From positions 62,001 through 126,000 of the forward strand of contig UEGR01000011.1 in the NCBI GenBank assembly GCA_900465685.1: a stretch of 64,000 nt of DNA, read 5' to 3'. Source of the DNA: Hyphomicrobiales bacterium (GTDB lineage Bacteria > Pseudomonadota > Alphaproteobacteria > Rhizobiales > Rhizobiaceae). A model generated the notes under the pieces. The model saw only the letters and a list, made by a program, of their open reading frames with translations. It did no database searches and was not told the DNA's origin. Each line of letters opens with the position of its first letter. The stretch's first letter is position 1. The position numbers and the translations under genes are program-made. Positions 8,366 to 23,757 of this stretch are shown in pieces.

Positions 8366-9133
8366 ATGCGCACAGCAATTGTTACCGGAGCGAGCCGCGG
8401 ATTGGGAAAAGCCTTCGCTATCGGACTGGCAAAAGACGGGTTCGCGCTTGGTCTTTGCGCCCGTGATGCGGCGGCTCTGGAAGAGACTGCGGAGGCTGCA
8501 CGCGCCGCTGGTGCGCCGGAGGTCGTGGTCATTGCCGCCGATCTTTCACAGCCAGGTGCAGCAGAAAAAGTTGTCGCCGATACGCTCGCCGTCACCGGAC
8601 GGATCGATGCGCTGATCAACAATGCAGGCGCGACCAAGCGCGGCGACTTTCTGTCGCTGAGCGACGATGATTTTCTGGAAGGCTTTGCGCTCAAGTTTCA
8701 CGCCACAGTGCGGTTTTGCCGGGCCGCATGGCCAGCCCTTGTCGAGAGCAAAGGCAGCATTGTGAATATATCGGGCGTCGGCGCGCATACACCCGAGCCC
8801 GACTTCACGATTGGCGGCTCGGTCAATTCAGCCCTGATCAATTTTACAAAGGCGATTTCAAAGCGCGCCCAAGGCACCGGCATGCGGATCAATACGCTCT
8901 GCCCCGGCCATATCGTGACCGACCGGCTGCTGCGTCGTATCGAAGTGCTGGCGAAGGAACGGAGTATTTCTCTGGATGCAGCACGCGATGCGCTGCGTGA
9001 AGCGCAAGGCATCCAGCGCTATGGAGAAGCCGATGAAGTTGCCGACGTTGTGCGCTTTCTTTGCAGCCCTGCGGCTGCCTATGTGCATGGCACGGTCATC
9101 AATGTCGACGGTGGTGCGACGCCGGGAATATGA
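8366..9133 (+). CDS. SDR-family protein with a substituted catalytic triad
   Basis: A 255-residue Rossmann-fold protein of the short-chain dehydrogenase/reductase family. The cofactor motif TGASRGLG (residues 7-14) and NNAGA (85-89) are intact, as is the C-terminal INVDGGATPGI. Aligned by eye on FabG, the Ser-Tyr-Lys triad is replaced by Gly137, Gly150 and Asn154 (region GVGAHTPEPDFTIGGSVN). Either it uses other residues, belongs to a non-classical SDR subgroup, or has lost oxidoreductase activity. It is convergent with the GntR gene and lies at the edge of the B6/pyridine island, so a role in that pathway is plausible but unproven. Confidence 0.82.
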   Translation: MRTAIVTGASRGLGKAFAIGLAKDGFALGLCARDAAALEETAEAARAAGAPEVVVIAADLSQPGAAEKVVADTLAVTGRIDALINNAGATKRGDFLSLSDDDFLEGFALKFHATVRFCRAAWPALVESKGSIVNISGVGAHTPEPDFTIGGSVNSALINFTKAISKRAQGTGMRINTLCPGHIVTDRLLRRIEVLAKERSISLDAARDALREAQGIQRYGEADEVADVVRFLCSPAAAYVHGTVINVDGGATPGI

Positions 9134-9154
9134 CCCCGGCGCCGAACTTCCTGT

Positions 9155-9874
9155 TTAAGAAGCGCTGGCCTCTTCGGCCAGCCGCTCGCGCAGAATAGCG
9201 ATTGCGACTTTGCCTGCGTTCATGACGTGATAAGCCGCTGCCTTGCGGGCTTCCTTGCCGCGTCTGGCTGCCAGATGGCCAACGACCTCTTCCAGCTCGG
9301 TGAGGCTTTCGCGCGTTCTACCCGGCGCGCCGAGCGACGTTGCGCGGAGAACCATGACGCGGGCGTTCAGTGACGACAGTGTGTGGCCCAGCGCCTCATT
9401 ATGCGCACCGTAGATCAGGCAGTCATAGAAGGAGTTTTTGGCCGTCAGCCGCTCCAAAGGATCCGTGATCTTGTCGCTGTTCTTCAGCACTTCGAATGCT
9501 GCCTTCAGAGCTGCAATGTCGTCATCAGTCGCATTTTGGGCGAACAGTTCGCAGGCAAGACCTTCCAGTTCGATACGCACCTGATAGATGCCCTCGGCCT
9601 GTTCGGGCTTCAGCCGCGCGACGATCGGGCCGCGATGCGGCACCACTTCCACGAGACCTTCACTCTCCAGCTGACGTAGCGCTTCGCGCACAGCCGTGCG
9701 GCTCACGCCAGTCATTTCGCACAGATCACGTTCCGTGATGCGCTGTCCAGCGGTGAAATACCCGATCGCGATAGAGTTGCGGATACTTTCCGTAACGCTA
9801 TGACGGACCGGTGCTGCAGCCTTTATCACTTTGAAATCAATAGGTGGGTTTTTTCCGTTCATCAATATCGCCAT
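9155..9874 (-). CDS. GntR-family (FadR/FCD type) transcriptional regulator
   Basis: DNA-binding regulator of about 239 residues. The N-terminal winged helix contains ITERDLCEMTGVSRTAVREA with LRQLESEGLV, the classic GntR recognition region. An all-helical ligand-binding FCD domain follows (IYQVRIELEGLACELFA and the conserved His/Asp/Asn region SFYDCLIYGAHNEAL). The start is uncertain: ATG at 9874 (preceded by GGGGCG) seems best, while 9889 and 9862 are alternatives. The candidate operator 9910-9928 lies about 36 bases upstream, suggesting autoregulation. It probably controls the surrounding catabolic genes, with a pathway intermediate as effector. Confidence 0.87.
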   Translation of the reverse strand: MAILMNGKNPPIDFKVIKAAAPVRHSVTESIRNSIAIGYFTAGQRITERDLCEMTGVSRTAVREALRQLESEGLVEVVPHRGPIVARLKPEQAEGIYQVRIELEGLACELFAQNATDDDIAALKAAFEVLKNSDKITDPLERLTAKNSFYDCLIYGAHNEALGHTLSSLNARVMVLRATSLGAPGRTRESLTELEEVVGHLAARRGKEARKAAAYHVMNAGKVAIAILRERLAEEASAS

Positions 9875-9909
9875 AAGTTTGCGCCCCATAAGCGAAAAGC
9901 GGGCATATT

Positions 9910-9928: not shown

Positions 9929-9984
9929 ACTGCACTTTTTGAAAGCATCCCCTTGTTCTCCCTGCCCGTTTTAGGTGCAGAACG

Positions 9985-11169
9985 TTAAGCGGGTGCCTCT
10001 TCAATCACCGCCATCGCCGCCGCAACACCTGCGCCAACGTCGATATTTGGCACGCCTGCCGCCTTGAGACCGCCTGCAATGGCAGCAACCGAGACGAGCG
10101 AATAGGTCGGACGTGCTGTCGGCCCCATATGTCCGATGCGGGTCAGTTTGCCGAGCGTTTCCCCGCGCCCTGACGAAAAGACAACTCCATAGCGGTCGCG
10201 GATTGCCGCCCGCAATTTCGCCTCATCCACCCCTTCCGGGATCGCCACAGCCGTACAGGTCGGCGATGCGATTTCTTCCCGTGCAGCCCAGAGTTTCAGA
10301 CCGGCGGCCTGAATGCCTGCGCGGCAGGCTTTGGCAGTCCATGCATGGCGCGCCCAGACGGCCTGTTCGCCCTCTTCCAGATAGAGATCGAGCGCCGCAT
10401 CCAGCGCGTTGATTTCTGAAACAGATGGTGTGAAGGGGAATGGCTTGTGTGCTTCATGGGCACGCTTCCAATCAATGATCGACAGGATGGAAGCTGTCGG
10501 CGCATTGGGATTGGCAGCGATTTTCTCCCAGGCCGCTTCGCTGACATGCAGGAGCGTCAGCCCGGGCGGGCAACCGAGACACTTGTTCGGACCGGTCACG
10601 AACATGTCGGCATGCGCCGTTTCAGGCAGCACATCCATGCCGCCGAATGCCGATACGGAATCGACGATGAACAATTTGCCCGCAGCCTGAACGACCGCTC
10701 CGATTTCAGCGACCGGATTGACCGTACCGGATGGCGTGTCGTGGTGGCAGATCGACACAACCGCAACATCAGGACGTTTTTTGAGAAAATCAGCCACTGC
10801 TTCCGCGGTCAGCACCTCATTATAGGGCACTTCCAGCTCGACCACTTCCTTGGCATAGCGCGCAGCCCAGAAGCCGAAGCCTTTTCCGTAGACGCCCGAA
10901 ACGAGATTGAGAACCACATCGTTTCTGGTGATCAGCGAAGCGGCTGCCGCTTCCAGCCCAAGAACAGGCTCTCCATGCAGGATAACAGGCGGTGTTTTGG
11001 TGTGAAACACGCGCTGCACCTTGGCATTCACCGCCTCGTAGAACGCAAGAAATGCCGGATCGTAATCATAGAGAACCGGCCGCGACAAGGCCCGCAATAC
11101 AGCCGGATAGGCATCGACGGGACCGGTGGTCAGCGTAAAAATCGGGTCGGCAATTTTTCCTGCATTCAT
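9985..11169 (-). CDS. ppaT: Pyridoxamine-pyruvate aminotransferase
   Basis: PLP-dependent fold-type I (class V) aminotransferase of 394 residues, expected to convert pyridoxamine plus pyruvate to pyridoxal plus L-alanine, an entry step of vitamin B6 catabolism. It resembles Mesorhizobium loti PPAT over most of its length as I remember that sequence: LTTGPVDAYP, VLYDYDPAF, PVILHGEPVLGLEAAAASL, VVLNLVSGVYGKGFGFW and FTPSVSEIN. The Schiff-base lysine is K196 in GPNKCLG. Glu67, which marks PPAT against serine and alanine aminotransferases, and Arg336/Arg345 for pyruvate binding (VFSSGRGETLGKLTRIGHMG) are all present. The start has GGGAG upstream. It is the last gene of a five-gene minus-strand operon with the lactonase. 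Confidence 0.9.
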   Translation of the reverse strand: MNAGKIADPIFTLTTGPVDAYPAVLRALSRPVLYDYDPAFLAFYEAVNAKVQRVFHTKTPPVILHGEPVLGLEAAAASLITRNDVVLNLVSGVYGKGFGFWAARYAKEVVELEVPYNEVLTAEAVADFLKKRPDVAVVSICHHDTPSGTVNPVAEIGAVVQAAGKLFIVDSVSAFGGMDVLPETAHADMFVTGPNKCLGCPPGLTLLHVSEAAWEKIAANPNAPTASILSIIDWKRAHEAHKPFPFTPSVSEINALDAALDLYLEEGEQAVWARHAWTAKACRAGIQAAGLKLWAAREEIASPTCTAVAIPEGVDEAKLRAAIRDRYGVVFSSGRGETLGKLTRIGHMGPTARPTYSLVSVAAIAGGLKAAGVPNIDVGAGVAAAMAVIEEAPA

Positions 11170-11205: not shown

Positions 11206-12555
11206 CTATCTGGCTCGCGCCAGACTGAGAAATGACGTGGCGTTGGCGGCATTCTCTATCCCTTCAAGGGCAGCGATCAGCGCCTCGTCGTCGATTGCGA
11301 TTCCGCGCCAGTCGATCTGCGCCTTGAATTTCTGCGCCAGTTCGGCGTTGCTCATTGGATAAGCCAGCCCGCCCTTGGCGCCATCGATCCTGCGCACCAG
11401 TTTGCGCCCATCTTCGAGCAGAACGCAAACCTCGACCGCCTCGAAAGAAAACGACGGATCATCGACAAAGGAAAGCTTTTCACCCAGCGCCTTCAGTTCA
11501 GGATCGGCCACAGCGGCATCGGAGAAAGCCGCCAGATCAGCCTTGCCCCACAGCAAGCTGACCGCAACGGCGTGTTGGGCGCTAACCTGCGCCAGCCGTC
11601 CGGTGGTAACGCCGGGCCTATCCGTGCGCTGGCGGAGCAACGGATGGCCGGTCAGCGTTACAGAGGTAATGGCATCGGCCCGCAGACCGCCTTCACCGTG
11701 CAGTTCAAGGCAGGCTTCAATCACCGGATTGAGCACCACACCGCATGGATAGGGCTTGAATGTGTTCTTCAGGATTTCCCAGTCGCTGCCAAGTCCACCG
11801 GTCAGCGTATCATAGTCTGGCGTATCGGAATGCAGAGCCAGAAAGCCGCGCGCGCCCTCCAGCGGCTCTGCGGGGCCGGTATATCCGTCGGCGGCCAGCA
11901 GAGCGGACATAAGGCCTGATCGCGCCGCCTGCCCTACGGAAAGGCTTTTGGACATGGTGCCCAGTGTTTCGACCGAGCCGGATGCCTGTGCCAGAGCATG
12001 GCCCAGCGCATCGACGAGTTGCGACGGGGAAAGCCCCAACAGTCGACCCGCCGCCAGTGCGGCACCAAATGTCCCGCAGGTGGAGGTAATGTGCCAGCCG
12101 CGTGCATAATGCACCGGATGCAACGCATTGCCCAACCGGCACGTCACTTCCGCACCAAGCACGAAGGCCTCGATCAGCGCCGCACCCGTTACCGGACGCC
12201 CTTCCCCGGCCATGGCTTCGGCCAGCGCCAGAATGGCTGGCGCGACCGGTGCCGATGGATGAATGACTGTCGGCACATGCGTGTCGTCAAAGTCGAAAAT
12301 ATTGGCGGAAGCGGCATTGATATAGGCCGCCCAAAGCATGTCGGCCCGCTCTGAGCGGCCAATGATGCTCGCTTTCGCCGGTCCAGAAAAGGCTGGCAGC
12401 ATGGCTACCAGTTTTTGTGTTGCTGCTTCGTTCGAGCCGCCTATGGCCGTACCGACCATATTGAGCAATGAGCACCGTCCCGCAGCGCGCACTGCTTCAG
12501 GCAAAGCTGGCGGAACATGGACAAACTCCGCCAGAGTGAGGCTTAAACCCTTCAT
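11206..12555 (-). CDS. MmgE/PrpD-family protein
   Basis: A 449-residue member of the MmgE/PrpD family, which includes 2-methylcitrate dehydratase, cis-aconitate decarboxylase and other enzymes acting on branched polycarboxylic acids. Typical segments are FDDTHVPTVIHPSAPVAPA near residue 90, GWHITSTCGTFGAALAA and FKPYPCGVVLNPVIEACLEL. It starts at ATG 12553-12555, one base after the stop of the upstream dehydrogenase gene, so the two are probably coupled. In this island it could dehydrate or hydrate a branched acid formed after ring cleavage. The substrate is unknown. Confidence 0.83.
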   Translation of the reverse strand: MKGLSLTLAEFVHVPPALPEAVRAAGRCSLLNMVGTAIGGSNEAATQKLVAMLPAFSGPAKASIIGRSERADMLWAAYINAASANIFDFDDTHVPTVIHPSAPVAPAILALAEAMAGEGRPVTGAALIEAFVLGAEVTCRLGNALHPVHYARGWHITSTCGTFGAALAAGRLLGLSPSQLVDALGHALAQASGSVETLGTMSKSLSVGQAARSGLMSALLAADGYTGPAEPLEGARGFLALHSDTPDYDTLTGGLGSDWEILKNTFKPYPCGVVLNPVIEACLELHGEGGLRADAITSVTLTGHPLLRQRTDRPGVTTGRLAQVSAQHAVAVSLLWGKADLAAFSDAAVADPELKALGEKLSFVDDPSFSFEAVEVCVLLEDGRKLVRRIDGAKGGLAYPMSNAELAQKFKAQIDWRGIAIDDEALIAALEGIENAANATSFLSLARAR

Positions 12556-12556
12556 G

Positions 12557-13453
12557 TCACGCGCCAGCAGCTTTGCCGCGCACTTCGGCACCTGCCCACT
12601 TCTCGAGCGGGCGAATGATTGCGGTCATGTCGGCATCCGCACCGAGATCGGCCTTGGTGATCGAGAAAAGCATGCGCACCGCATTGCCCACCATCATCGG
12701 CACACCGAGCCGTTCAGCTTCTTCGAGGCACAAACGGATATCCTTGAGCGACAAGCCAATTGCAAAACCGAAATCGAAACTGCGCGGCAGCACAAAGCGT
12801 GGGATTTTATCGGCGCTTGCGGAGGTGCGACCGGAACCGGCATTCAGGACTTCGATCATGACATCTGCGTCGAGACCGGCCTTGGCGCCCATTACCATGG
12901 CTTCTGACGTGATCGCCAATGCAGCAGCCGAGCAGATATTGTTGATCAGCTTCATCACCTGCGCTTTGCCCGGCTCTTCGGCGACACGGATCACCTTGCC
13001 AAGCGCGAGCAGCATCGGTTCCGCGACCGAAAAATGCGCCGAAGGACCCGCAGCCATAAGCGCAAGCGTTCCCTTCTTGGCACCTGCGACACCGCCCGAA
13101 ACCGGGCTATCAATCAGTGCAATGCCAGCAGCCGACAATATTTCAGCCAGATCCATCTCGGCTTTCGGCCCAGTGGTCGACAGATCAACGACGCGCTTCA
13201 CCACGCCGGGATTGGCCGCAATGCTGCGCCCGACAGCGATCACCACCTCGGGCGTCGGCAAAGACAGGAAGATCGTCTCTGCGCGCGCGGTCAATTCGCC
13301 GATGGTGCCAGCCTCTTCCGCCCCTGCGGCAACCAATGCGGCCACAGCCGCTTCGGCGCGGTCATTTACGGCAAGCTTGTAGCCTGCACCGATGATGCGC
13401 TCCGCCATAGGGCGTCCCATATTGCCAAGGCCGACAAAACCGACTTCACTCAT
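12557..13453 (-). CDS. NAD(P)-dependent beta-hydroxyacid dehydrogenase
   Basis: A 298-residue enzyme of the 3-hydroxyisobutyrate / tartronate semialdehyde reductase family. The dinucleotide motif VGFVGLGNMGRPMA begins at residue 4, the substrate-binding DSPVSGGVAGAKKGTL lies in the middle, and the catalytic lysine is in KAQVMKLINN. A C-terminal all-alpha domain follows. It oxidises or reduces a short 3-hydroxy acid or semialdehyde. It lies in the operon with the lactonase, SDR, PrpD-like protein and PPAT, so it probably handles a semialdehyde or hydroxyacid released from the pyridine ring. It is 29 bases after the SDR gene. Confidence 0.87.
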   Translation of the reverse strand: MSEVGFVGLGNMGRPMAERIIGAGYKLAVNDRAEAAVAALVAAGAEEAGTIGELTARAETIFLSLPTPEVVIAVGRSIAANPGVVKRVVDLSTTGPKAEMDLAEILSAAGIALIDSPVSGGVAGAKKGTLALMAAGPSAHFSVAEPMLLALGKVIRVAEEPGKAQVMKLINNICSAAALAITSEAMVMGAKAGLDADVMIEVLNAGSGRTSASADKIPRFVLPRSFDFGFAIGLSLKDIRLCLEEAERLGVPMMVGNAVRMLFSITKADLGADADMTAIIRPLEKWAGAEVRGKAAGA

Positions 13454-13482: not shown

Positions 13483-14265
13483 TCAGGCAAACGACCAGCC
13501 ATTATCCACCGGTATCGCCGCACCGTTGATTCCTTCGCTGGCAGCGCCGCAAAGGAACAGCGCCAAGGCGGTCACCGTCTCCATCGGAATAAATTTGCCA
13601 CCCGGCTGACGGGTGGAAAGGAAAAGACGCGTCGCCTCTTCATTGCTGATGCCTTTTTCCGCGGCCAGCACTTCAATGCGGCCAAGGGCGGAATCGGTTG
13701 CCATCAGCCCGGGGCAGATCGCGTTGCAGGTGATCCCGGTTGAGGCCAGCTCCAGCGCGACCGTCCGCGTCAGGCCGATCATCGCGTGTTTGGTGGTGAC
13801 ATAATCCGCACGACCGGCGAGCGCGATGAGGCTGTAAACCGACGCCATATTGACGATCCGCCCCCAACCCCGGGCCTGCATGCCCGGCAGACAGGCGCGA
13901 ATCAGACGGAAAGGAGCGGACAGATTGACCTCCAGCGCCTTGTCCCAATCGGAATCGGCCAGCGCCTGCACCGGCGACATTTTGCGAATAACCGCATTGT
14001 TGACCAGAATATCGATCCCGCCTAACTGTTCGGTTGCAAGGGCTGCAAGATGATCGGCTGCCCCGATTTCAGACAGATCGATCACCGATGAGCCGACCGG
14101 CTGGCCTGTTTCACGGCTCAGCGCCGTCGCGGCATCGCTCACTTCGGGCAGAATATCGGTGAGAAACACACGATCTCCGGCCTTAGCAAAGCTGCGGGCC
14201 AGTTCCAGTCCGAGGCCAAGGGCCGAACCGGTAATCAGAACACCACGTCCTGTTGCAAGCGTCAT
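13483..14265 (-). CDS. SDR-family dehydrogenase, candidate pyridoxal 4-dehydrogenase
   Basis: A 260-residue classical short-chain dehydrogenase. It has the cofactor motif TGSALGLG, NNAVI, and an intact catalytic set with Ser in NMASVYS and Tyr/Lys in YVTTK, 13 and 17 residues later. The ATG at 14263-14265 overlaps the lactonase stop (ATGA) and has GGAGGAG eight bases upstream. In the Mesorhizobium pathway an SDR oxidises pyridoxal to 4-pyridoxolactone, the substrate of the next enzyme. Coupling to a lactonase gene makes this the best local candidate for that step. Another alcohol substrate remains possible. Confidence 0.85.
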   Translation of the reverse strand: MTLATGRGVLITGSALGLGLELARSFAKAGDRVFLTDILPEVSDAATALSRETGQPVGSSVIDLSEIGAADHLAALATEQLGGIDILVNNAVIRKMSPVQALADSDWDKALEVNLSAPFRLIRACLPGMQARGWGRIVNMASVYSLIALAGRADYVTTKHAMIGLTRTVALELASTGITCNAICPGLMATDSALGRIEVLAAEKGISNEEATRLFLSTRQPGGKFIPMETVTALALFLCGAASEGINGAAIPVDNGWSFA

Positions 14266-15113
14266 CGCGCCAGCTCCTCCCACGTCAAACTTGGCGTAAC
14301 GTCGAGCCGAACGACGATCCCCTCCAGTTCAGCCGAAGGTGCTGAATAGGCCTGCATAACCGCCGGATCGTGACCCGGAACAATGTGATCGAGGCTTGGC
14401 GCCAGTTCGGTCAGTCGGGCATAGCCGCGAATAAGAGAGGCTTCATCGTAGAGCACGGGAAACGGATTGCGATGCTCCATATTGGCGTAAAAATGCGTTG
14501 CATCGGAAGCCAGGACTACCCAACCGCGCGCGGTATAGACGCGAACCGCCTGCAAACCGGCACTGTGGCCCGGCACAGCATGAAGCCAGAATCCGGGCGA
14601 AAGCTCCCGGTCGCCCCGATGAAACTCAATCCTGCCCGCATAAAGGCTGCGAATATAGGCGACGATGTTTTCAACATCGAAAGGAGCACGCGCTTTCGGG
14701 TCGCACATGCAGGGGCCGGTGGCGTGTCCCGCCTCATCAACCTGCAAATGAAAATGCGCAGCCGGGAAATCGCCAAGCGTTCCCGCATGATCGTAATGGA
14801 GATGCGTCAGCACGACCTGAGACACCTTGCCTGCATCCACGCCGAGAAGCGCCAGCGCATCCACCGGCTTCCGCAACAAGGTCCGCCCGCGCGCATCGGC
14901 GGCATCCTGCCCAAAGCCGGTATCTATGACGAAAACCTCGTCACCGCGCCGGGCAAGCCAGACAAAATAGTCGAGATCGGCACCCGACTCATGCGGGTCA
15001 GAAACATGCAGAAAATTGTCTTTGATCGTCCGTCCGCCATGGGTGGCGTAACGCAAGGCATAAAGCTCGAAGGGCGCTATTTCCCCGTCAGATCCCGATA
15101 TCGGCTCCGCCAT
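14262..15113 (-). CDS. Metallo-beta-lactamase-fold hydrolase, candidate 4-pyridoxolactonase
   Basis: A 283-residue metallo-beta-lactamase-fold enzyme close to the N-acyl homoserine lactonase group. The zinc motif is His104, His106, Asp108, His109 (LTHLHYDHAG); later ligands are visible in PGHSAG, SDATH and VPGHDP. The start ATG 15111-15113 follows GGGAGGATC. It is the first gene of the minus-strand operon, coupled to an SDR. Context suggests opening of 4-pyridoxolactone to 4-pyridoxate. It does not closely match the Mesorhizobium 4-pyridoxolactonase as I remember it, so this is a contextual guess. A quorum-quenching lactonase is the main alternative. Confidence 0.8.
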   Translation of the reverse strand: MAEPISGSDGEIAPFELYALRYATHGGRTIKDNFLHVSDPHESGADLDYFVWLARRGDEVFVIDTGFGQDAADARGRTLLRKPVDALALLGVDAGKVSQVVLTHLHYDHAGTLGDFPAAHFHLQVDEAGHATGPCMCDPKARAPFDVENIVAYIRSLYAGRIEFHRGDRELSPGFWLHAVPGHSAGLQAVRVYTARGWVVLASDATHFYANMEHRNPFPVLYDEASLIRGYARLTELAPSLDHIVPGHDPAVMQAYSAPSAELEGIVVRLDVTPSLTWEELAR

Positions 15114-15176
15114 GATCCTCCCGCCCCACAAGCACATTCGACGTCGCTGCGCCGAACAATTTCATCTTAGCCTACA

Positions 15177-15301: not shown

Positions 15302-15712
15302 ATGACTCGTCCTGAATTCAACGGTGAACAATTCCAGAAGGGGTTGAAGGTTCGGCGCGAAGTGCTTGGCGAGGCTTATGTCGCGCCATCGCTGGCCAAT
15401 GCCGATGACCTGACCGCACCGCTTCAAAAGCTCGTCACCGAATGGTGCTGGGGTGAAATCTGGACCCGCCCCGGTCTCGAGCGCAAGACCCGCAGTTTTC
15501 TCAACCTCGCAATGCTGACGGCTCTAAACCGCCCGCATGAAATAAAGATCCACGTTCGCGGTGCATTGAACAATGGCGTGACCGAAAACGAGATCGTCGA
15601 GGTCATTCTTCAGGCCGCAATTTACTGCGGTGTGCCTGCCGCGCTCGACGCCATGCGTGTTGCTTCGGATGTGATCCGGCAAATGCGTGAAGAAAAGGTC
15701 GAAAGCGCCTGA
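15302..15712 (+). CDS. Carboxymuconolactone decarboxylase-family protein
   Basis: A 136-residue all-helical protein of the 4-carboxymuconolactone decarboxylase (CMD/AhpD) family. The core TEWCWGEIWTRPGL, then RSFLNLAMLTALNR and HVRGALNNGVTENEI, is typical of the decarboxylase branch. The CxxC pair of peroxidase-type AhpD is absent; only isolated cysteines are seen. It is the first gene of the rightward operon, 69 bases before the monooxygenase gene, and so lies within the aromatic/pyridine pathway. Decarboxylation or lactone isomerisation of an intermediate is possible; the exact reaction is not known. Confidence 0.85.
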   Translation: MTRPEFNGEQFQKGLKVRREVLGEAYVAPSLANADDLTAPLQKLVTEWCWGEIWTRPGLERKTRSFLNLAMLTALNRPHEIKIHVRGALNNGVTENEIVEVILQAAIYCGVPAALDAMRVASDVIRQMREEKVESA

Positions 15713-15781
15713 TTTATATAACCGGAAACGCTCCATAAAACCGGGGAACACCGGCGATTCCAATTGCAAATAGGAGGCCCA

Positions 15782-17269
15782 ATGACACAGGGAACAGCTA
15801 CAAAACCAGCCAGCACGCCGCATCGGCTGAAGACCGGCGCGGAGTATAAGGAGTCCCTCAAGGACAACCGCCAGATCTGGGTCGGCGGTTCGAAACTGAA
15901 CTCCGTCTATGACGAACCCGCGCTGGCCAAGGGCATCGACCTTCTGGCCTCGATGTTCGACGATCAGTTCACTGAAGAACATGCCGACGCCACCACCTAT
16001 TACGACGAAAAGGCAGGCGCTGTTCTCAGCCGTTCGTGGCAGATTCCGCGCACCAAGGAAGATCTGGCCGCACGTCGCCGCATGATCGAATATACGTCGC
16101 TCAAGACCGCAGGCACCTTCGGACGTCCGCCAGATCTCGCGCCTTCCATCGTTGTTGGTCTCTATGCCTATCTGCCGACCTTCAAGAAGAAGAAGTCGCT
16201 TATCGACGGCATCGATCCGGACTTCGCTGAAAACATCGAACGCTACATGGAATATGGTCAGAACAACAATCTGACCGCGTCGGAAAGCCTCGCCGGACCG
16301 CAGGCTGACCGTTCCTCGCCCAAGGCCTCGGAAGCCTCGCTCCTGAAGGCGCGCAAGGTTACGAAGGACGGCGTCTATATCTATGGTGCCAAGACCGTCG
16401 GCTCGATTGCCGCGCAGGCCAATGATATTTTCTTCACCAATCTCGGTGGCATTCAGGAAACTCCTGCGGACGCCTGCATCTGGGGTTCGGTGCCTATCGA
16501 CACGCCCGGCATCAAGATGATCTCGCGTGAAATGGTCTCGCAGCCATTGTCGAGCAAGTTCGACCATCCGGTGTCGAGCCTCGGCGAAGAAGCCGACCAG
16601 TTCATCGTGTTCGACAATGTTTTCGTGCCGAAGGAACGGCTCTTCAACCTCGGCGATCCGACGGCTATGAGCTATTACGGCCCGGTCTGCGTTTTTGCAC
16701 ACTGGCATGTCCTCACCCGTCTCGCGGTGAAGGCGGAATTGTTCGTCGGTGCAGGCCAGATGGTTCTCGATTATCTCGGCACCGGCAAAATTCCGGCTGT
16801 TCAGATGATGCTGGGCCAGCTGGTCGAATATGCGCAGACGCTCCGCGCCTTCGTCACCGCTGCCGAAGCACTGGCTGTCCCGACCGAAGGCGATGTGATG
16901 CGCCCCGATGTAGGCATGCTCACCGCCGGTCGTCTCTATTCCATCGAAAACTACCCGAAGATCATCCATATCCTTCAGGAATTATGTGGTCAGGGTCTGG
17001 TGATGCGTTTTGGCAAGAAGGCGTTCGACAATCCGGAAGTCGGCCACTTCCTGCATGAACTGCTGCCCGGACATGGCGTATCGGCCATGGTCAAGGAACA
17101 GCTGATGAATTTCATCTGGGACATGACCTCCGGTTCGCTGGCTGGCCGCGTTGCGCTGTTTGAAAACGTCAACGCCACACCGGCTCCGGCCCTGCGCGCC
17201 CGGCTTTATAATGAAGTCAAGCGCGACGGCTATGTCGCCCAGGTGAAGAAAATCGCCGGGATCGAGTAA
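15782..17269 (+). CDS. HpaB-family flavin-dependent monooxygenase, oxygenase component
   Basis: A 495-residue oxygenase of the 4-hydroxyphenylacetate 3-hydroxylase (HpaB) family, which uses reduced flavin from a separate reductase to hydroxylate phenol-like rings ortho to a hydroxyl. Family features are the N-terminal TGAEYKESLKDNRQIWVGG, the mid-region ESLAGPQADRS and KTVGSIAAQANDI, and the acyl-CoA dehydrogenase-like C-terminal helical domain. The ATG at 15782 follows a strong AGGAGG. A matching flavin reductase gene lies at 20457-20972. A pyridine such as 4-pyridoxate, which carries a 3-hydroxyl, would be a chemically sensible substrate; this is inference. Confidence 0.88.
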   Translation: MTQGTATKPASTPHRLKTGAEYKESLKDNRQIWVGGSKLNSVYDEPALAKGIDLLASMFDDQFTEEHADATTYYDEKAGAVLSRSWQIPRTKEDLAARRRMIEYTSLKTAGTFGRPPDLAPSIVVGLYAYLPTFKKKKSLIDGIDPDFAENIERYMEYGQNNNLTASESLAGPQADRSSPKASEASLLKARKVTKDGVYIYGAKTVGSIAAQANDIFFTNLGGIQETPADACIWGSVPIDTPGIKMISREMVSQPLSSKFDHPVSSLGEEADQFIVFDNVFVPKERLFNLGDPTAMSYYGPVCVFAHWHVLTRLAVKAELFVGAGQMVLDYLGTGKIPAVQMMLGQLVEYAQTLRAFVTAAEALAVPTEGDVMRPDVGMLTAGRLYSIENYPKIIHILQELCGQGLVMRFGKKAFDNPEVGHFLHELLPGHGVSAMVKEQLMNFIWDMTSGSLAGRVALFENVNATPAPALRARLYNEVKRDGYVAQVKKIAGIE

Positions 17270-17280: not shown

Positions 17281-17312
17281 CCCCGCCTGATGCCAATCGG
17301 GCGGGGTTTTTT
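17281..17312 (+). terminator. Intra-cluster terminator after the monooxygenase gene
   Basis: Stem of 11 bp with one G-U pair (CCCCGCCTGAT 17281-17291, ATCGGGCGGGG 17296-17306), loop GCCA, followed by six T. It starts 11 bases after the HpaB-like stop and ends 25 bases before the next gene. Downstream genes therefore get reduced read-through or use another promoter. Confidence 0.85.
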
Positions 17313-17337
17313 CTTTCGCGACATGTTGGAGATTGCG

Positions 17338-17727
17338 ATGGATCAGTCCACGCTTATCGACCGCTTTTATAGCGCTTACACTTCGCGCGATGCCGAGGGA
17401 GCGGCTTCGCTTTATCACGCCGATGGCTGGCACGAGGAAGTCGCCATGGCGAAACGCCGTCAGGGACACGCCGCTCTGGCCGAGGGGCTGACCGGTTTCT
17501 GGCGCATGCTGCCTGACGTTGCATGGGAACGGCGCGGCTATATCCGTTCTGGCAATCAGGTTGCTGTTCCCTATCACATGACCGGCACCTTCACGCCGCG
17601 CGGCGACAATGTTGAACCACGCCAGATCGCCCTTGACGGCCTGCATATATTCGAGTTCCAAGACGGTCTGCTGGCGGGCACCAAAGACATGTGGGACCTC
17701 GATCTTTTCAAAGCGCAGATGAGTTGA
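17338..17727 (+). CDS. NTF2/SnoaL-like small protein
   Basis: A 129-residue protein with an NTF2-like (SnoaL) fold: the N-terminal helix DQSTLIDRFYSAYTSRDAEG, then LYHADGWHEE and beta strands ending in HIFEFQDGLLAGTKDMWDLD. This fold serves as isomerase, cyclase, hydrolase or binding protein; no catalytic set can be assigned. The ATG at 17338 is chosen because GGAG lies six bases upstream; an in-frame ATG at 17290 falls inside the terminator hairpin. It sits between the monooxygenase and the first amidase, four bases before the latter, so it is probably part of the pathway. Confidence 0.8.
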   Translation: MDQSTLIDRFYSAYTSRDAEGAASLYHADGWHEEVAMAKRRQGHAALAEGLTGFWRMLPDVAWERRGYIRSGNQVAVPYHMTGTFTPRGDNVEPRQIALDGLHIFEFQDGLLAGTKDMWDLDLFKAQMS

Positions 17728-17731
17728 GACG

Positions 17732-19150
17732 ATGAATGATCTGGCGAAACTCGACGGCATCGCGATTGCCGGTCTGATCTCAAGCAAGGAGATCAGCGCA
17801 AGCGAAGTCCTCGAAACCACTATCGAACGGATCGAGCGGCTCAACCCGCAGCTCAATGCCGTCGTGCACCCGCATTATGATCTCGCGCGCAAGCAGGTCG
17901 CTGACGGCTTGGCCAAAAGCCCGCTCTCAGGCGTTCCGATGCTGTTGAAGAACACCGGCTTCGAAGCGGAAGGCATGCTTCTGTCGAGCGGGTCAGAACT
18001 GCTGCGCAATGTCGTCAGCAAACGCGATTCCACTATCACCGCGCGCTATAAAGCGGCGGGCATGGTGATTGTCGGCAAGTCCAATACGCCGGAATTTGCG
18101 CTGAGCTTCACCACGGAATCCGACGCCTTTGGCCCAACCCGCAATCCTTGGGATATCAACCGCACGGCGGGCGGCTCGTCAGGCGGCTCGACTGCAGCAG
18201 TTGCCAGCGGCATGGTGCCGCTTGCCAACAGTTCGGACGGTGCGGGTTCTACACGCCTGCCTGCCAGCCATTGCGGTCTTTTCGGGTTCAAGCCGTCGCG
18301 ACTGATCAATCCCGTTGGCCCTGCAGCCGCTGAAGCCATTGGCGGCATGTCCACACCACACGCCGTCACCTGGTCGGTGCGCGACAATGCGGCCATGCTC
18401 GACGTGACAGGCGGCAGCGATCTCGGCGACCCATGGGCCTCGCCCGCCAAGCCGGGCAGCTATCTGGCGGCGCTCGACAAAACACCGCCTCGCCTCAAGG
18501 TCGCGATGATTGTCGCTGCGCCGGACGGCTGCCCCATCGACCCAGAAATGGTCGAAAGCGTTCGCGCCACCGCGCGGTTGCTGGAAGACCTAGGACACAG
18601 TGTCGAAGAAGTTGCAGATGCAGGCTATGACGCGGAAGCGCTGAAAGCAGCATGGCGCATCATCGTCGGCGTCAATGTGGCCTTGGGTGTCAGCGGTGGC
18701 GATGCAGCTTCTGCCAACATCGCCAAGCTTGAACCCGTCAATCAGCAATGGGTCCGCGAAGCCTTGGCAATACCCGGCACCCGCTATTTGTGGGCCGTCA
18801 ACCAGCTGCACGCTTCGGCACGAGCACTCGGGCAGTTCTTCAGCACATATGACGTCATGCTGACCCCTGCTGCGGCAGAACCCGCGCCGCTCTTGGGCAA
18901 GCTTGCCGGTCAGGGCAAGAACATCGACGAATTCTACGATCTGTTCTGGTCGCATTCGCCGTTCACTGCCGTTTTCAACACATCCGGCTGCCCGGCAATG
19001 TCGGTTCCACTCGGCATGAGTTCCCATGGCCTGCCCATCGGCTCGCATCTCGGCGCCGGTTTTGGAAACGACGCACTGCTTTTCGCGCTGGCTGCGGAGC
19101 TTGAACGCACCGCTCCGTGGATCGACCGGCGCCCATCCATATTCGGCTGA
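17732..19150 (+). CDS. Amidase-signature hydrolase 1
   Basis: A 472-residue amidase-signature family hydrolase with the Ser-cisSer-Lys machinery: the Lys in VPMLLKNTGF (near residue 73), the glycine/serine segment TAGGSSGGSTAAVASGMVPL and the nucleophile region SSDGAGSTRLPASHCGLFGF. The family cleaves amide bonds of small molecules in the cytoplasm. In the island it could hydrolyse the amide or formamide made when the pyridine ring is opened, releasing ammonia. It is in an operon with a second, clearly different amidase 11 bases downstream. Confidence 0.87.
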   Translation: MNDLAKLDGIAIAGLISSKEISASEVLETTIERIERLNPQLNAVVHPHYDLARKQVADGLAKSPLSGVPMLLKNTGFEAEGMLLSSGSELLRNVVSKRDSTITARYKAAGMVIVGKSNTPEFALSFTTESDAFGPTRNPWDINRTAGGSSGGSTAAVASGMVPLANSSDGAGSTRLPASHCGLFGFKPSRLINPVGPAAAEAIGGMSTPHAVTWSVRDNAAMLDVTGGSDLGDPWASPAKPGSYLAALDKTPPRLKVAMIVAAPDGCPIDPEMVESVRATARLLEDLGHSVEEVADAGYDAEALKAAWRIIVGVNVALGVSGGDAASANIAKLEPVNQQWVREALAIPGTRYLWAVNQLHASARALGQFFSTYDVMLTPAAAEPAPLLGKLAGQGKNIDEFYDLFWSHSPFTAVFNTSGCPAMSVPLGMSSHGLPIGSHLGAGFGNDALLFALAAELERTAPWIDRRPSIFG

Positions 19151-19161
19151 GGAAATGTTTG

Positions 19162-20460
19162 ATGAACAACTCTGAAATCCTTGCCCTAAATGCTCGCGAC
19201 ATCGCCGCTGCCGTAGCCTCCGGTGCTCTCACCACCCGTGCGGTCACGGAAGCCTATCTTGAACGCATTGCGGACAGGGACGGCCCGGTCATGGCGTGGC
19301 AGCATCTTGATGCCGCGCAGGTGCGCGCCGCCGCCGATGCGATGGATGCATCTGGAGCCAAGGGAGCGCTGGCTGGCGTCCCGATTGGCGTCAAGGACGT
19401 CATCGACACAGCCGACATGCCCACGGGCTATGGCACGAGCATCTATGAGGGCTTTCAGCCGCCATGGGATGCGCCAGCCGTGCAGATCACCCGCAATGCA
19501 GGCGGCTTGATCCTGGGCAAGACGGTGAGCACGGAACTTGCCATGGCAAGCCCGAACAAGACCCGCAACCCGCATAATCCGGCCCATACGCCGGGCGGAT
19601 CGTCATCCGGTTCCTGTGCTGCCGTTGCCGCTGGCATGGTGCCTCTGGCCTATGGCACGCAAACTTCCGGTTCGGTTATTCGCCCTGCAAGCTTTTGCGG
19701 TGTGACGGCCTTCAAGCCGACCTTCGGTGCGATCAACACGGTCGGGATCAAGGTGCTCTGCCATGGACTGGATACGCTCGGCATTCTCAGCCGTAACATT
19801 GGCGATGCCGCCCATTGCGCCGCAGTGCTGACCGGTAAATCCGACCTGGCCACCCTCACAGTACCGGCGCGCCCTCGCATCGGTGTCCTGCTCGGCACGC
19901 GACTTGAAAAGGCGGAAGCCTATGCAATCGACATCGTCAACCGGCTGGCGTCCCTTGCGGAAGCATCCGGCGCAGACGTAACCGTGCTGGCCGCTCCGTC
20001 CTGGTTTGACGGCATTTTCGACCTGCATGAAGCCGTCATGGGCTGGGAAGTCACCCAGTCACTCGTCTCCGAGACCAGCCGCCATTGGGATCGGCTGACA
20101 CCCGTTACCCGCGCCATGATGGAAGATCAGGGTCGCGTTGATGAAGTCCGTTATCGTGCCGCCATGGGCGAGATTCCGGGCATTCGCCTGATGATGGACG
20201 CGATCCTCTCGCGTTTCGATGCGGTGTTGACGCTGGCCGCTCCCGGCGAAGCGCCGGAAGGAACGCCAACTGGCGACCCGATTTTCAACCGGCTGTGGAG
20301 TGTCCTGCAAGTGCCGCTCATCTGCCTCCCCGCAGGCAAAGGCCCAAAAGGATTGCCAGTCGGCGTCCAGCTTGTCGGCGTGCGCGGCGCCGACCACCGG
20401 CTTGCCTCAGCGGCGCTCTTTCTTGAAACCGTGCTTGCTGCAAAAGGAGGCACCCTATGA
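19162..20460 (+). CDS. Amidase-signature hydrolase 2
   Basis: A 432-residue amidase-signature enzyme: Lys in GVPIGVKDVIDTADM, TPGGSSSGSCAAVAAGMVPL, and YGTQTSGSVIRPASFCGV with the serine nucleophile. The ATG at 19162 follows GAGGAAATGTTTG; an in-frame ATG at 19117 lies inside the previous gene. Its stop overlaps the flavin reductase start by four bases (ATGA). Having two amidases in one operon suggests two successive C-N cleavages, for example deformylation and deamidation of a ring-opened product. This is inferred from context. Confidence 0.87.
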   Translation: MNNSEILALNARDIAAAVASGALTTRAVTEAYLERIADRDGPVMAWQHLDAAQVRAAADAMDASGAKGALAGVPIGVKDVIDTADMPTGYGTSIYEGFQPPWDAPAVQITRNAGGLILGKTVSTELAMASPNKTRNPHNPAHTPGGSSSGSCAAVAAGMVPLAYGTQTSGSVIRPASFCGVTAFKPTFGAINTVGIKVLCHGLDTLGILSRNIGDAAHCAAVLTGKSDLATLTVPARPRIGVLLGTRLEKAEAYAIDIVNRLASLAEASGADVTVLAAPSWFDGIFDLHEAVMGWEVTQSLVSETSRHWDRLTPVTRAMMEDQGRVDEVRYRAAMGEIPGIRLMMDAILSRFDAVLTLAAPGEAPEGTPTGDPIFNRLWSVLQVPLICLPAGKGPKGLPVGVQLVGVRGADHRLASAALFLETVLAAKGGTL

Positions 20461-20972
20461 TCCAGCCAGCCACCGATCAGCTGACCGATGATTTTCGCTC
20501 TGCCATGCGTCAGCTTGCGGCGACGGTGAACATCATCACCGCCGGTGAAGGCGATCAGCGGCGCGGTCTGACCGCAACTGCCGTCTGCTCCATGTCGCTG
20601 ACGCCGCCTTCCATGCTTGTCTGCGTCAATCGCTTCGGTGAGGCGCACAAGGCGATCACCTCGGCGGGAAGCTTCTGCGTCAATATTCTCGCCGACCGCC
20701 AGCGTGAAGTCGCCATGCGTTTCGCAGGCCAGATCGGCCAGATGGGCGAAGACAAATTTGCGCCCTATCACTGGACAAGCCTTGCCACGGGTGCACCCGC
20801 TCTTGATGACGCCATGGCCAATCTCGATTGCGAGATCGCGACGGTTTCCGAGACAGACAGCCATTCGATTTTCATTGGCAATGTAAAGGCAATCCGCTTC
20901 GGACCCGAAACATCGCCGCTGCTGCACTACAACCGCAACTTTTTCACATTGGCAAACCAAAACGCACTCTAG
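20457..20972 (+). CDS. Flavin reductase (HpaC-like), monooxygenase partner
   Basis: A 171-residue flavin reductase of the HpaC/RutF split-barrel family, which uses NAD(P)H to supply reduced flavin to an oxygenase. Family features are FRSAMRQLAATVNIITAGEG at the N-terminus, RRGLTATAVCSMSLTPPSML, GSFCVNILADRQ and a terminal HYNRNFFTL. It is the natural partner of the HpaB-like oxygenase at 15782-17269, although a terminator and three genes separate them. The start overlaps the amidase stop (ATGA). The stop codon lies inside the left arm of a palindromic hairpin. Confidence 0.88.
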   Translation: MIQPATDQLTDDFRSAMRQLAATVNIITAGEGDQRRGLTATAVCSMSLTPPSMLVCVNRFGEAHKAITSAGSFCVNILADRQREVAMRFAGQIGQMGEDKFAPYHWTSLATGAPALDDAMANLDCEIATVSETDSHSIFIGNVKAIRFGPETSPLLHYNRNFFTLANQNAL

Positions 20973-21173: not shown

Positions 21174-22217
21174 ATGTCAATCAGCGACGCTCAGTTCCTG
21201 AAGGGCTGGAGACAGGTGCTCGAAATGTGCAACCTGAAAGCTGGCGAACAGGTCACCATTCTGACGAGTGACGACAGCAACAAACAGATCGCCTATATCG
21301 CCAAGCTTGCAGCTTCCGATCTTGGCGCGGTTGTCACCGAACTGAACCTTGCTCCGGTCAACGCCGAAAAAGCGATTTCGCCAGACAAGTCTGGCTATAT
21401 CGGCAAGACGCCGCTCGACGGCAATTCGGCAGCACTGGCCTGCCTTATGGCGTCCGACATGGTCATCGACACATTGCAGCTTCTGTTTTCCAAGGAACAG
21501 GAAGAAGTACTGAAGACTGGCACGCGCATGCTGCTGGCGGTGGAACCACCAGCAATCATGATGCGCCAGATTCCGCGCCCGGAAGACAAGCTGCGCGTTC
21601 TCGCTGCCGCCAAGAAGATCGGCGCGGCCAAGGAAATGCACGTGACCTCGAAAGCCGGTACGGATTTCCGCTGCCGTCTCGGCCAATATCCGGTTCTCAC
21701 GCAATATGGTTTGGCCGATGAGCCGGGCCGCTGGGACCACTGGCCAAGCTGCTTTTCCGCCCGCTGGCCGGATGAAGGCAGTGCCGAAGGCACCATCGTC
21801 ATTGACGAAGGCGACATCCTGCTGCCGTTCAAAAAATACGCTCGCGCGCCGATTACGGTCACCATCGAAAAGGGCTTTATTGTTGATATCAAAGGCGGTT
21901 ACGACGCCGAGTTCATGCGCAAGTTCATGGACAGCTTCAATGACCCCCGCGCCTATGCCATGGCCCATGTCGGCTGGGGTCTGGAAAACCGCGCCAACTG
22001 GACGGTACTCGGCCTTTACAATCCCGAGGCACAGCTTGGCATGGATGCGCGCTCGTTCGCAGGCAATTTCCTGTGGTCGTCGGGTCCGAATACCGAAGCT
22101 GGCGGCGATCGCGATACGCCGTGCCATCTCGATATTCCACTGCGCAATTGCTCTGTCTCTCTCGATGGCGAAGTCATGACACTGGAAGGCGTCGTGGTTC
22201 CTGCGGATCAGAAGTAA
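21174..22217 (+). CDS. NicX-like 2,5-dihydroxypyridine 5,6-dioxygenase family enzyme
   Basis: A 347-residue Fe(II) ring-cleaving dioxygenase. It resembles Pseudomonas NicX (2,5-dihydroxypyridine 5,6-dioxygenase) over the whole length as I recall that protein: GTRMLLAVEPP, SKAGTDFRC, then LGQYPVLTQYGLADEPGRWD, and TPCHLDIPLRNC. The metal ligands fall at the same positions, His265, His318 and Asp320. NicX opens a dihydroxypyridine to N-formylmaleamate. No nicD, nicE or nicF homologue is nearby, and the neighbours are B6 enzymes, so the true substrate is probably a substituted dihydroxypyridine. A strong GGAGG precedes the start. Four bases separate it from the GMC oxidase gene. Confidence 0.87.
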   Translation: MSISDAQFLKGWRQVLEMCNLKAGEQVTILTSDDSNKQIAYIAKLAASDLGAVVTELNLAPVNAEKAISPDKSGYIGKTPLDGNSAALACLMASDMVIDTLQLLFSKEQEEVLKTGTRMLLAVEPPAIMMRQIPRPEDKLRVLAAAKKIGAAKEMHVTSKAGTDFRCRLGQYPVLTQYGLADEPGRWDHWPSCFSARWPDEGSAEGTIVIDEGDILLPFKKYARAPITVTIEKGFIVDIKGGYDAEFMRKFMDSFNDPRAYAMAHVGWGLENRANWTVLGLYNPEAQLGMDARSFAGNFLWSSGPNTEAGGDRDTPCHLDIPLRNCSVSLDGEVMTLEGVVVPADQK

Positions 22218-22221
22218 GGCC

Positions 22222-23757
22222 ATGGCACAATACGACGTGGCAATCATTGGCGCCGGCTCTGCTGGCGCCCTTCTCGCCGCACGGCTGAGCGAAGATCCGG
22301 CACGGCAAGTTGTGCTGATCGAGGCCGGTGGCGAGCCGACAGACCCCGATATCTGGAAACCGGCCATGTGGCCCGCGATCCAGCATCGCCCCTATGATTG
22401 GGATTATAATACCGTCCCGCAGCCGGGTGCTGCCGGTCGCAGTTTCGCTTGGGCACGCGGCAAGGCGTTGGGTGGCTCCAGCCTGCTGCATGCCATGGGG
22501 TATATGCGCGGCCATCCCGCCGACTTTGCTGCCTGGGCGGAAGCGACGGGCGATGAACGCTGGAGTTGGGAAGGCTTGCAGAAAGCCTTCATGGCAAATG
22601 AAGACCACGCACTGGGCGGCGATGGTATCCACGGCAAGGGCGGCCCGATGCCGGTATGGATACCGGACGAGGAGGTCAGCCCCCTGACCCGCGCCTTCAT
22701 CGAAGCGGGTGCTGCACTTGGCCTGCCCCGTATTCCCGGTCACAGCACCGGGCAGATGATGGGTGTTACGCCGAACTCGCTGATGATCCGCGATGGCCGA
22801 CGCGTAACGGTCGCCGAAGCATGGCTGACGCCAAGTGTGCGTGCGCGTCCCAACCTGACGATACTGACAGGTACCCGTACCCGACATCTCAGTCTCGACA
22901 ACTCCCACGTCGTGGGGCTTGAAGTCGTCGGCCCGGAAGGTCCAAATACGATCACTGCTGACCAGATCATCCTTTCAGCAGGTTCTCTGGAAGGCCCGGC
23001 CCTTCTCATGCGTTCCGGCATTGGACCGGAAGACGTGTTGCAAGAGGCTGGCGTGACCTGCCGTATCAAAGCGCCTGAACTGGGCCGCAATCTGATGGAT
23101 CACCTGCTGGGCGCAGGCAATCTCTACGCTGCCAGACAAAAGCTGGCACCATCCCGTCTGCAGCATTCGGAGAGCATGGCCTATATGCGTGCCGATGGCA
23201 CTGCGACGGACGGCCAGCCCGAAATCGTCGTCGGATGCGGGGTTGCGCCCATTGTGTCGGAACTTTTCACGGCACCAGCACCGGGCAGCGCCTATTCCTT
23301 CCTGTTCGGCGTTACGCATCCCACAAGCCGTGGTGAAATACGCATAACCGGTGCAGGTCTGGACGATCCCCTTAGGATCGACCCCAAATATCTCCAGACC
23401 GAAAACGACCGGCGATTGTTTCGGGCGGCCCTCGCGGCAGCGCGGGAAATCGGCCATCGCCCCGAACTGGATGAATGGCGCGACCACGAAATTCTCCCCG
23501 GAGCCGTTGAAACTGAGGACGATATCGACGCCTTCATCGCCAAGGCTGCCATCACGCATCACCACCCGTCAGGAACCTGCCGTATGGGCAAGGACGATGC
23601 CGCAGTGGTCGATCCCGACTTGCGGCTGAATGGGCTGGATAATGTCTATGTCGTGGATGGCTCCGTTCTGCCGAGCCTGACCGCTGGTCCCATCCACGCG
23701 GCCATTCAAGCCATCGCCGAACGCTTTGCCAGCGATTTCATTGGCAAGGCAAATTGA
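22222..23757 (+). CDS. GMC oxidoreductase, pyridoxine 4-oxidase-like
   Basis: A 511-residue FAD-dependent GMC-family alcohol oxidase. The FAD motif IIGAGSAGALLAARLSEDP is at residue 8 and the ADP-binding ARGKALGGSSLLHAMGYMRG follows. It closely resembles Mesorhizobium loti pyridoxine 4-oxidase as I recall it: DWDYNTVPQPG, EDHALGGDGIHGKGG, GVTPNSLMIRDGRRVT and RLQHSESMAYMRADG. The catalytic base is probably His448 in HHHPSGTCRMG. Pro490 in AGPIHAA replaces the second His/Asn of most GMC enzymes, as in pyridoxine 4-oxidase. Reaction: pyridoxine plus O2 to pyridoxal plus H2O2. It is the last gene of the rightward operon. Confidence 0.89.
   Translation: MAQYDVAIIGAGSAGALLAARLSEDPARQVVLIEAGGEPTDPDIWKPAMWPAIQHRPYDWDYNTVPQPGAAGRSFAWARGKALGGSSLLHAMGYMRGHPADFAAWAEATGDERWSWEGLQKAFMANEDHALGGDGIHGKGGPMPVWIPDEEVSPLTRAFIEAGAALGLPRIPGHSTGQMMGVTPNSLMIRDGRRVTVAEAWLTPSVRARPNLTILTGTRTRHLSLDNSHVVGLEVVGPEGPNTITADQIILSAGSLEGPALLMRSGIGPEDVLQEAGVTCRIKAPELGRNLMDHLLGAGNLYAARQKLAPSRLQHSESMAYMRADGTATDGQPEIVVGCGVAPIVSELFTAPAPGSAYSFLFGVTHPTSRGEIRITGAGLDDPLRIDPKYLQTENDRRLFRAALAAAREIGHRPELDEWRDHEILPGAVETEDDIDAFIAKAAITHHHPSGTCRMGKDDAAVVDPDLRLNGLDNVYVVDGSVLPSLTAGPIHAAIQAIAERFASDFIGKAN

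Follow-up and report, generated by a model that had tools for sequence, protein, structure and literature searches.

The stretch analysed here (contig UEGR01000011.1 of a Hyphomicrobiales bacterium; hereafter the window, 64 kb out of a 5.14-Mb draft genome) carries a real, recurring and genetically coherent vitamin B6 catabolic cluster, whose ring-opening part is unlike both textbook routes. We consider it likely that this cluster imports and degrades B6, keeping the entry enzymes of the classical pathway and opening the ring by other chemistry. A sequence-only reading of the same DNA had proposed that an HpaB/HpaC-type hydroxylase, a NicX-type dioxygenase and amidases replace the classical ring-opening oxygenase (MHPCO), and both the sequence and its recurrence in other genomes support this. 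From left to right, the window holds the genes of an ABC transporter (2725-7654), SDR1, a GntR/FCD regulator, a minus-strand operon (in order: lactonase-like, SDR2, HIBADH-like, PrpD-like and pyridoxamine-pyruvate aminotransferase, PPAT) and a plus-strand operon (in order: CMD, HpaB, SnoaL-like, amidase A, amidase B, HpaC, NicX and pyridoxine 4-oxidase):

2725..3657, minus strand: putative B6 ABC transporter permease 1 (NF047928, 481.4 bits, cut-off 465)
3670..4761, minus strand: putative B6 ABC transporter permease 2 (NF047929, 521.7 bits, cut-off 400)
4758..6419, minus strand: putative B6 ABC transporter ATP-binding protein (NF047930, 741.2 bits, cut-off 670)
6545..7654, minus strand: putative B6 ABC transporter substrate-binding (BMP) protein (NF047927, 471.8 bits, cut-off 400)
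8366..9133, plus strand: SDR1, putative accessory oxidoreductase (SDR family)
9155..9889, minus strand: GntR/FCD regulator (PF00392 and PF07729)
9985..11169, minus strand: PPAT (2z9u, 559.5 bits; NF046070, 647.8 bits, cut-off 600)
11206..12591, minus strand: MmgE/PrpD-like protein, proposed lower-pathway (de)hydratase or decarboxylase (PF03972 and PF19305)
12557..13453, minus strand: 3-hydroxyisobutyrate-dehydrogenase-type (HIBADH-like) oxidoreductase, proposed lower pathway (PF03446 and PF14833)
13483..14283, minus strand: SDR2, candidate pyridoxal or lower-pathway dehydrogenase (3-hydroxybutyrate-dehydrogenase-like)
14262..15137, minus strand: metallo-beta-lactamase-fold lactonase-like protein (HLHYDH at residue 112)
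15302..15712, plus strand: carboxymuconolactone-decarboxylase-family (CMD) protein (TIGR02425, 150.7 bits, just under the cut-off of 155.7)
15782..17269, plus strand: HpaB/HadA-type FADH2 monooxygenase (PF11794 and PF03241)
17290..17727, plus strand: SnoaL/NTF2-like protein, conserved (PF12680)
17732..19150, plus strand: amidase A, amidase-signature family (GGSSGG at 147)
19117..20460, plus strand: amidase B, amidase-signature family (GGSSSG at 160)
20457..20972, plus strand: HpaC/RutF-type flavin reductase (TIGR03615, 141.4 bits, and TIGR02296, 131.7 bits, both under cut-off)
21174..22217, plus strand: NicX-type ring-cleaving dioxygenase (7cn3, 393.9 bits)
22222..23757, plus strand: pyridoxine 4-oxidase of the GMC family (4ha6, 770.8 bits)

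Family scans and structure matches confirmed every gene that the sequence-only reading had named, at the coordinates given above, as well as the residues it had assigned in PPAT (K196, E67), the GMC oxidase (H448, P490) and the NicX-like protein (H265, H318, D320); the PPAT arginines lie at 335 and 344, not at 336 and 345. A fourth iron ligand of the NicX-like protein (S302), the CMD and SnoaL-like proteins and the transporter are additions of the present analysis. For HpaB, the ATG at 15782 suits most relatives better as a start than the TTG at 15764.

The upper part of the cluster closely resembles known B6 systems. The GMC oxidase matches the Mesorhizobium loti pyridoxine 4-oxidase (4ha6) across residues 5-506, PPAT matches the M. 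loti PPAT structure (2z9u) and passes the cut-off of the PPAT family model (NF046070), and all four transporter subunits exceed the cut-offs of the NCBIfam models named "putative B6 ABC transporter". The oxidase, the final gene of the NicX operon (4-bp gap), is 66-69% identical to oxidases of three genomes (L131, L132, L135) in which the classical ring-opening oxygenase is encoded nearby. In one of them (G248), PPAT sits between two proteins that exceed their cut-offs of 325, a classical 4-pyridoxolactonase (493.9 bits) and a pyridoxal 4-dehydrogenase (421 bits), and the adjoining transporter genes are 58-69% identical to those of the window. Judged by the oxidase and PPAT matches, together with the gene order in G248 and the likeness of the transporters, the island has the entry part of B6 pathway I (Pseudomonas MA-1, Mesorhizobium loti) in common with classical loci: a B6-type ABC transporter, pyridoxine 4-oxidase and PPAT. 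The last two would convert pyridoxine and pyridoxamine to pyridoxal. Pathway II (Pseudomonas IA, Arthrobacter Cr-7) degrades the same vitamin via the 5-position, whereas the entry enzymes of the window are predicted to act at the 4-position.

To assess recurrence, we sought the same gene set in other genomes, as the sequence-only reading had suggested. One contig scan with HpaB yielded 55 loci, among them 44 with an HpaB at or above 72% identity (class A, the partial locus L072 included); the nearest named ones belong to Brucella haematophila and two Ochrobactrum strains, and Rhizobium daejeonense (L081) and an Ancylobacter also carry the cluster. Up to 10 kb was fetched on each side, and in this DNA the 44 class-A loci contain NicX in 43 cases, the oxidase, both amidases and the SnoaL-like protein in 42 each, PPAT in 41, the transporter substrate-binding protein in 40 and HpaC in 38. 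Less constant are CMD (26), the HIBADH-like protein (25, eight of them at 35-38% only), SDR1 (18, one of them, L028, at 35% only), SDR2 (18), the lactonase-like protein (18) and the PrpD-like protein (17). The three loci without PPAT (L028, L060, L072) are on contigs of 6-12 kb. In L041 and L042 both amidases and HpaC are not found within 10 kb; both contigs have, at a distance of about 25 kb, a related cluster that includes an amidase and an HpaC-like gene (L070, L069). Conservation across the 44 loci led us to reject a chance gathering of unrelated catabolic genes.

HpaB and PPAT are also linked phylogenetically. In a maximum-likelihood tree of 60 HpaB rows (the near-identical L025-L028 and the partial L072 were left out), the window falls inside a 41-row clade (support 100/99). 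PPAT is present in the locus for 40 of these rows, the remaining one being on a 6.4-kb contig, and for 0 of the 13 rows of the sister clade. When genomes of the same order were sampled, HpaB was found in 7 of 297, in all seven with PPAT 4.6-5.9 kb away (hypergeometric probability of co-occurrence 6e-8, own genome excluded and relatedness ignored). The cluster is rare overall, since in a sample of the class HpaB was found in the own genome alone (1 of 318); PPAT was found in seven, leaving six PPAT genomes without HpaB. The tree intermingles rows of Rhizobiaceae, Brucellaceae and Paracoccaceae, and some copies are plasmid-borne, which points to horizontal transfer of the cluster. Two metagenome bins labelled Enterobacterales (L045, L053) also carry a class-A cluster and form their own branch.

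We then compared these genomes with respect to the classical enzymes, using as MHPCO probe the ring-opening oxygenase of a relative (L131), which scores 838 bits to 3alj. The comparison covered 39 genome entries: two classical controls and 37 entries with the HpaB cluster, picked from the fetched loci so that not every one of the 44 is included (at least two are apparently one genome). An MHPCO orthologue was detected in 0 of the 37 HpaB entries and in both controls (100%, this being the probe itself, and 86%); distant relatives (36-40%) occur in five HpaB entries. The 4-pyridoxolactonase model (NF047925) passed its cut-off in both controls and in a single HpaB entry (G316, the genome of L055). 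With up to 53 candidates scored per genome, the pyridoxal 4-dehydrogenase model (NF047923) did so in both controls and in 0 of 36 HpaB entries (G266 left out). The sequence-only reading had named a full classical lower pathway elsewhere in the genome as evidence that would speak against it. In the genome that holds the window, the search, which covered these three classical enzymes and no others, detected none of them: MHPCO gave no match at 1e-40 (all 11 candidates scored), 4-pyridoxolactonase reached 39.2 bits at best (cut-off 325; controls 494 and 474) and pyridoxal 4-dehydrogenase 215 bits at best among the 53 of 79 first-look candidates scored (cut-off 325; controls 421 and 393). The FHMPC dehydrogenase model NF042925 is recognised in classical loci. 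In the order sample, MHPCO orthologues of at least 86% occur in 4 of 297 genomes, all with PPAT and none with the cluster HpaB, and four further genomes have MHPCO relatives at 39-42% only.

In the pathway that we propose, the ABC transporter would bring in B6 vitamers, and the HpaB/HpaC pair would hydroxylate the pyridoxal formed by the entry enzymes, or 4-pyridoxate derived from it, at C6. Because C6 is para to the 3-hydroxyl of B6, this would create the 2,5-dihydroxypyridine pattern. The NicX-like enzyme would then cut the C3-C2 bond (B6 numbering) to give an N-acetyl maleamate-type compound, from which the two amidases, as many as the amide bonds of an N-acylmaleamate, would strip acetate and ammonia in either order. 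The leftover carbon skeleton would pass to accessory enzymes that vary by lineage (PrpD-like protein, hydroxyacid dehydrogenase, CMD protein, SDRs and lactonase). We infer every one of these reactions from sequence, and those past pyridoxal call for the most caution. Pathway I also releases acetate and ammonia, so that these products would be common to both routes; the difference would be that its single flavin oxygenase is replaced here by C6 hydroxylation followed by a NicX-type iron dioxygenase. Two amidase-signature enzymes are present here instead of the NicD and NicF of the nic pathway. The sequence-only reading had also considered that HpaBC might hydroxylate with decarboxylation, which is less likely because NicX needs the 2,5-dihydroxy (para) pattern.

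The assignment of HpaB to para-hydroxylating enzymes is based on profile and residue comparisons. A 28-row HpaB profile placed six nitrophenol or chlorophenol 4-monooxygenase sequences on top (278-259 bits) and 4-hydroxyphenylacetate 3-hydroxylases lower (237-167 bits). The top match, 7dbw, is labelled 4-hydroxyphenylacetate 3-hydroxylase, yet its alignment is nearly the same as that of the 4-nitrophenol 4-monooxygenase 9j9j. We mapped the residues of HadA by eye from the printed alignment with 7e8q. Flavin residues R101, Q158, R161, R233, D254 and R439 correspond to R115, Q174, R177, R249, D272 and R456 in HpaB, T193 is conservatively changed to S208, and the catalytic base His290 corresponds to H307; the flavin residues and H307 are invariant in all 28 rows. 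PMC8342789 describes the roles of these HadA residues and states that His290 is retained only in dehalogenating or denitrating members; oxidation at the para position is described in PMC3431827. The window enzyme thus shares with the class D FADH2 monooxygenases HadA, TftD and TcpA the flavin residues, the equivalent of His290 and a separate flavin reductase, and para-hydroxylation of a hydroxyl-bearing ring, as in HadA, is proposed here too. It differs in matching them at about 200-280 bits only, and the 3-hydroxypyridine proposed as its substrate lacks a leaving group at C6. Identification of HpaB as a dehydratase or isomerase of the same fold was rejected, as such structures were the lowest-scoring of the 15 listed.

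The NicX-like protein aligns ungapped over residues 1-345 with NicX of P. putida (7cn3). Its iron ligands H265, S302, H318 and D320, the same four as reported for NicX in PMC7910607, are found in 59 of 59 NicX-like rows. According to the same paper, NicX cleaves the C5-C6 bond. This bond corresponds to C3-C2 of B6; with the methyl group on C2, cleavage should yield an N-acetyl amide rather than the N-formyl amide of the nic pathway. As in NicX, the proposed cleavage adjoins a carbon bound to the ring nitrogen.

Several observations weigh against this interpretation. HpaB is remote from characterised enzymes (best single-sequence score 212.3 bits), the chlorophenol-4-monooxygenase 4oo2 (193.5 bits) ranks beneath 4-hydroxyphenylacetate hydroxylases in the profile search, and the phenol-stacking pocket residues of HadA, Phe206 and Phe286, are changed in the 7e8q alignment. 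The substrate contacts H105 and E177 of NicX are F105 and Q177 in all 45 class-A rows, the window included, and NicX is described as strongly specific for 2,5-dihydroxypyridine; in the same source (PMC7910607) H105A is dead, whereas H105F and H105M are still active. The pair F105 and Q177 is no B6 signature, because it also occurs in 11 rows from clusters without PPAT. The B6 transporter name is that of NCBIfam, where it is marked putative and perhaps derives from gene neighbourhood. The HpaB of one PPAT locus (L125) is remote (26%) and falls outside the clade, where its branch is very long. Finally, HpaB and an MHPCO orthologue were both absent from 11 of the 22 PPAT genomes sampled in the order, which means that there are further lower routes or that PPAT-like enzymes have further uses; the non-overlap of HpaB (seven genomes) and MHPCO (four) among PPAT genomes is not significant alone (0.19), and the sample searches scored the best 4-6 first-look candidates per genome.

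In two rival explanations, B6 is not the substrate of the ring-opening enzymes. The NicX/HpaBC/amidase operon could degrade another 3-hydroxypyridine, such as a plant or soil compound, and merely lie beside genes for B6 uptake and salvage. Related clusters of HpaB and NicX-like genes, mostly with amidases, do exist without PPAT or oxidase, and the module can therefore serve other substrates. We find this unlikely for the window, as the oxidase ends the NicX operon, PPAT accompanies HpaB in 40 of the 41 clade rows and in all seven order genomes that have HpaB, and the 37 HpaB entries yielded no MHPCO orthologue. Even less probable, to the point of being very unlikely, is that B6 catabolism is incomplete, with pyridoxal being exported or salvaged and NicX acting on 2,5-dihydroxypyridine from nicotinate or picolinate. 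This would fit NicX being a known 2,5-dihydroxypyridine enzyme, of which the window protein is a full-length relative and the only NicX-like one found in the genome; against it stands the linkage of NicX to PPAT and the oxidase. PF01494 has 32 matches in the genome, and three were inspected for a 6-hydroxynicotinate 3-monooxygenase (NicC). One (L001) is a 4-hydroxybenzoate 3-monooxygenase and another (L006) is in PRK07538; the third (L003), the one compared with the PDB, speaks against this explanation in scoring higher with salicylate monooxygenases (165 bits) than with NicC (121 bits). This check was aimed at NicC, not at NicD, NicF or molybdenum hydroxylases.

A separate question within the proposed B6 pathway is whether HpaBC acts on 4-pyridoxate, as the sequence-only reading had assumed. 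SDR2 would then produce 4-pyridoxolactone and the metallo-lactonase 4-pyridoxate. SDR2 is 30-35% identical to SDRs next to PPAT in classical-type loci, and the lactonase-like gene shares its operon, overlaps it and encodes an HxHxDH motif; since the classical lactonase and dehydrogenase are under cut-off in the own genome, 4-pyridoxate would need replacements for them. On the other hand, the NF047923 matches of the own genome at 1e-60 do not include SDR2, the lactonase-like protein reaches 42.9 bits with NF047925 (cut-off 325), and both could equally act in the lower pathway. The 18 class-A loci that carry them, counted in the fetched DNA and leaving aside more distant homologues, are represented in the HpaB tree by one 16-row subclade (support 100/98) nested in the 41-row clade, so that the SDR2/lactonase set looks like a later addition. 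In the other 26 loci both genes are outside the fetched DNA, and HpaB nevertheless stays at or above 72%. Because HpaB is conserved with or without them, pyridoxal is an equally live substrate: either it would be the HpaB substrate everywhere, or other enzymes elsewhere in those genomes would make 4-pyridoxate. We therefore keep the cluster and the enzyme set of the original scheme, while flux through 4-pyridoxate, although quite conceivable, is not established and falls somewhat short of being our expectation.

A more specific version can be put forward tentatively, as a possibility that we would not yet favour. It is a third B6 route with pyridoxal as branch point, in which C6 hydroxylation by HpaBC bypasses 4-pyridoxate, NicX opens the ring at C2-C3 to an N-acetylmaleamate-type aldehyde and the amidases free acetate and ammonia. 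Partly on plasmids, the route would have spread over several alphaproteobacterial families, and SDR2, the lactonase and PrpD would have been added later in one lineage. Hydration, decarboxylation and oxidation of a hydroxymethyl-maleate-type acid are conceivable lower-pathway roles for the PrpD-like, CMD, HIBADH-like, SDR and lactonase proteins.

Two B6 degradation routes have been identified and characterised, as stated in PMC3538738, and the first of them is described in PMC6253932. A study of a Mesorhizobium M29 aminopeptidase in which pyridoxine 4-oxidase is mentioned proved irrelevant here, as did PMC12393044. Judged by titles, we found no HpaB/NicX route for B6 in the open-access literature; subscription papers were mostly outside this scope, and the result is no proof of novelty. 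If the proposed pathway is true, it constitutes a third ring-opening chemistry that would account for the use of B6 by those soil and marine alphaproteobacteria in which the known oxygenase was not found. The NicX and HpaB families would gain a vitamin substrate, and current gene names (4-hydroxyphenylacetate 3-monooxygenase, 2,5-dihydroxypyridine dioxygenase) would have to be corrected.

The region that follows the oxidase (23847-31805) encodes a LacI regulator, a sugar-type ABC transporter and dihydroxyacetone-kinase-like subunits (30150-31805). We rejected the regulator and transporter (from 23847) as pathway parts, given that they recur in 1 of 44 loci (L025); this test covered the regulator, the first permease and the substrate-binding protein, the kinase-like genes lying past the fetched flanks.

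Other loci show related arrangements. PPAT genomes without HpaB or an MHPCO orthologue include G015 (L121/L133), G209 (L118/L130) and those of L124 and L126. Several retain the transporter, a lactonase-sized gene, PPAT and a dehydrogenase-like SDR, and L133 also encodes a 3-hydroxyacyl-CoA-dehydrogenase-type protein and a second GMC enzyme; such genomes may have yet another lower route or truncated pathways. Four of them (G050, G121, G150, G198) have a PPAT relative of 55-56% only. In L125 (2876-6144, genome G181), the different HpaB-like protein, an amidase and an HpaC-like protein are encoded within a few kb of PPAT and an SDR.

The sister-clade loci (L065-L070, L074, L078, L079, L082, L084) encode NicX-like proteins and mostly amidases, have no PPAT and often carry an isochorismatase and an FAD-synthetase-like protein. 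They are probably routes for other hydroxypyridines. A B6-type transporter is present in four of them (L065, L066, L074, L082), with about 50% identity in the cases compared. A Peribacillus plasmid (L083) encodes HpaB twice, together with a NicX-like protein that has E177 and F105, an Asp/Glu racemase, isochorismatases and an alpha/beta hydrolase; this set resembles a pathway of the 2,5-dihydroxypyridine type, here in Bacillota. Finally, 24 loci (for example L054, 9011-9457) encode a family of small, apparently secreted proteins of about 149 amino acids; one scanned member has no Pfam match, and where inspected (for example L041 and L046) the gene adjoins the B6 transporter.

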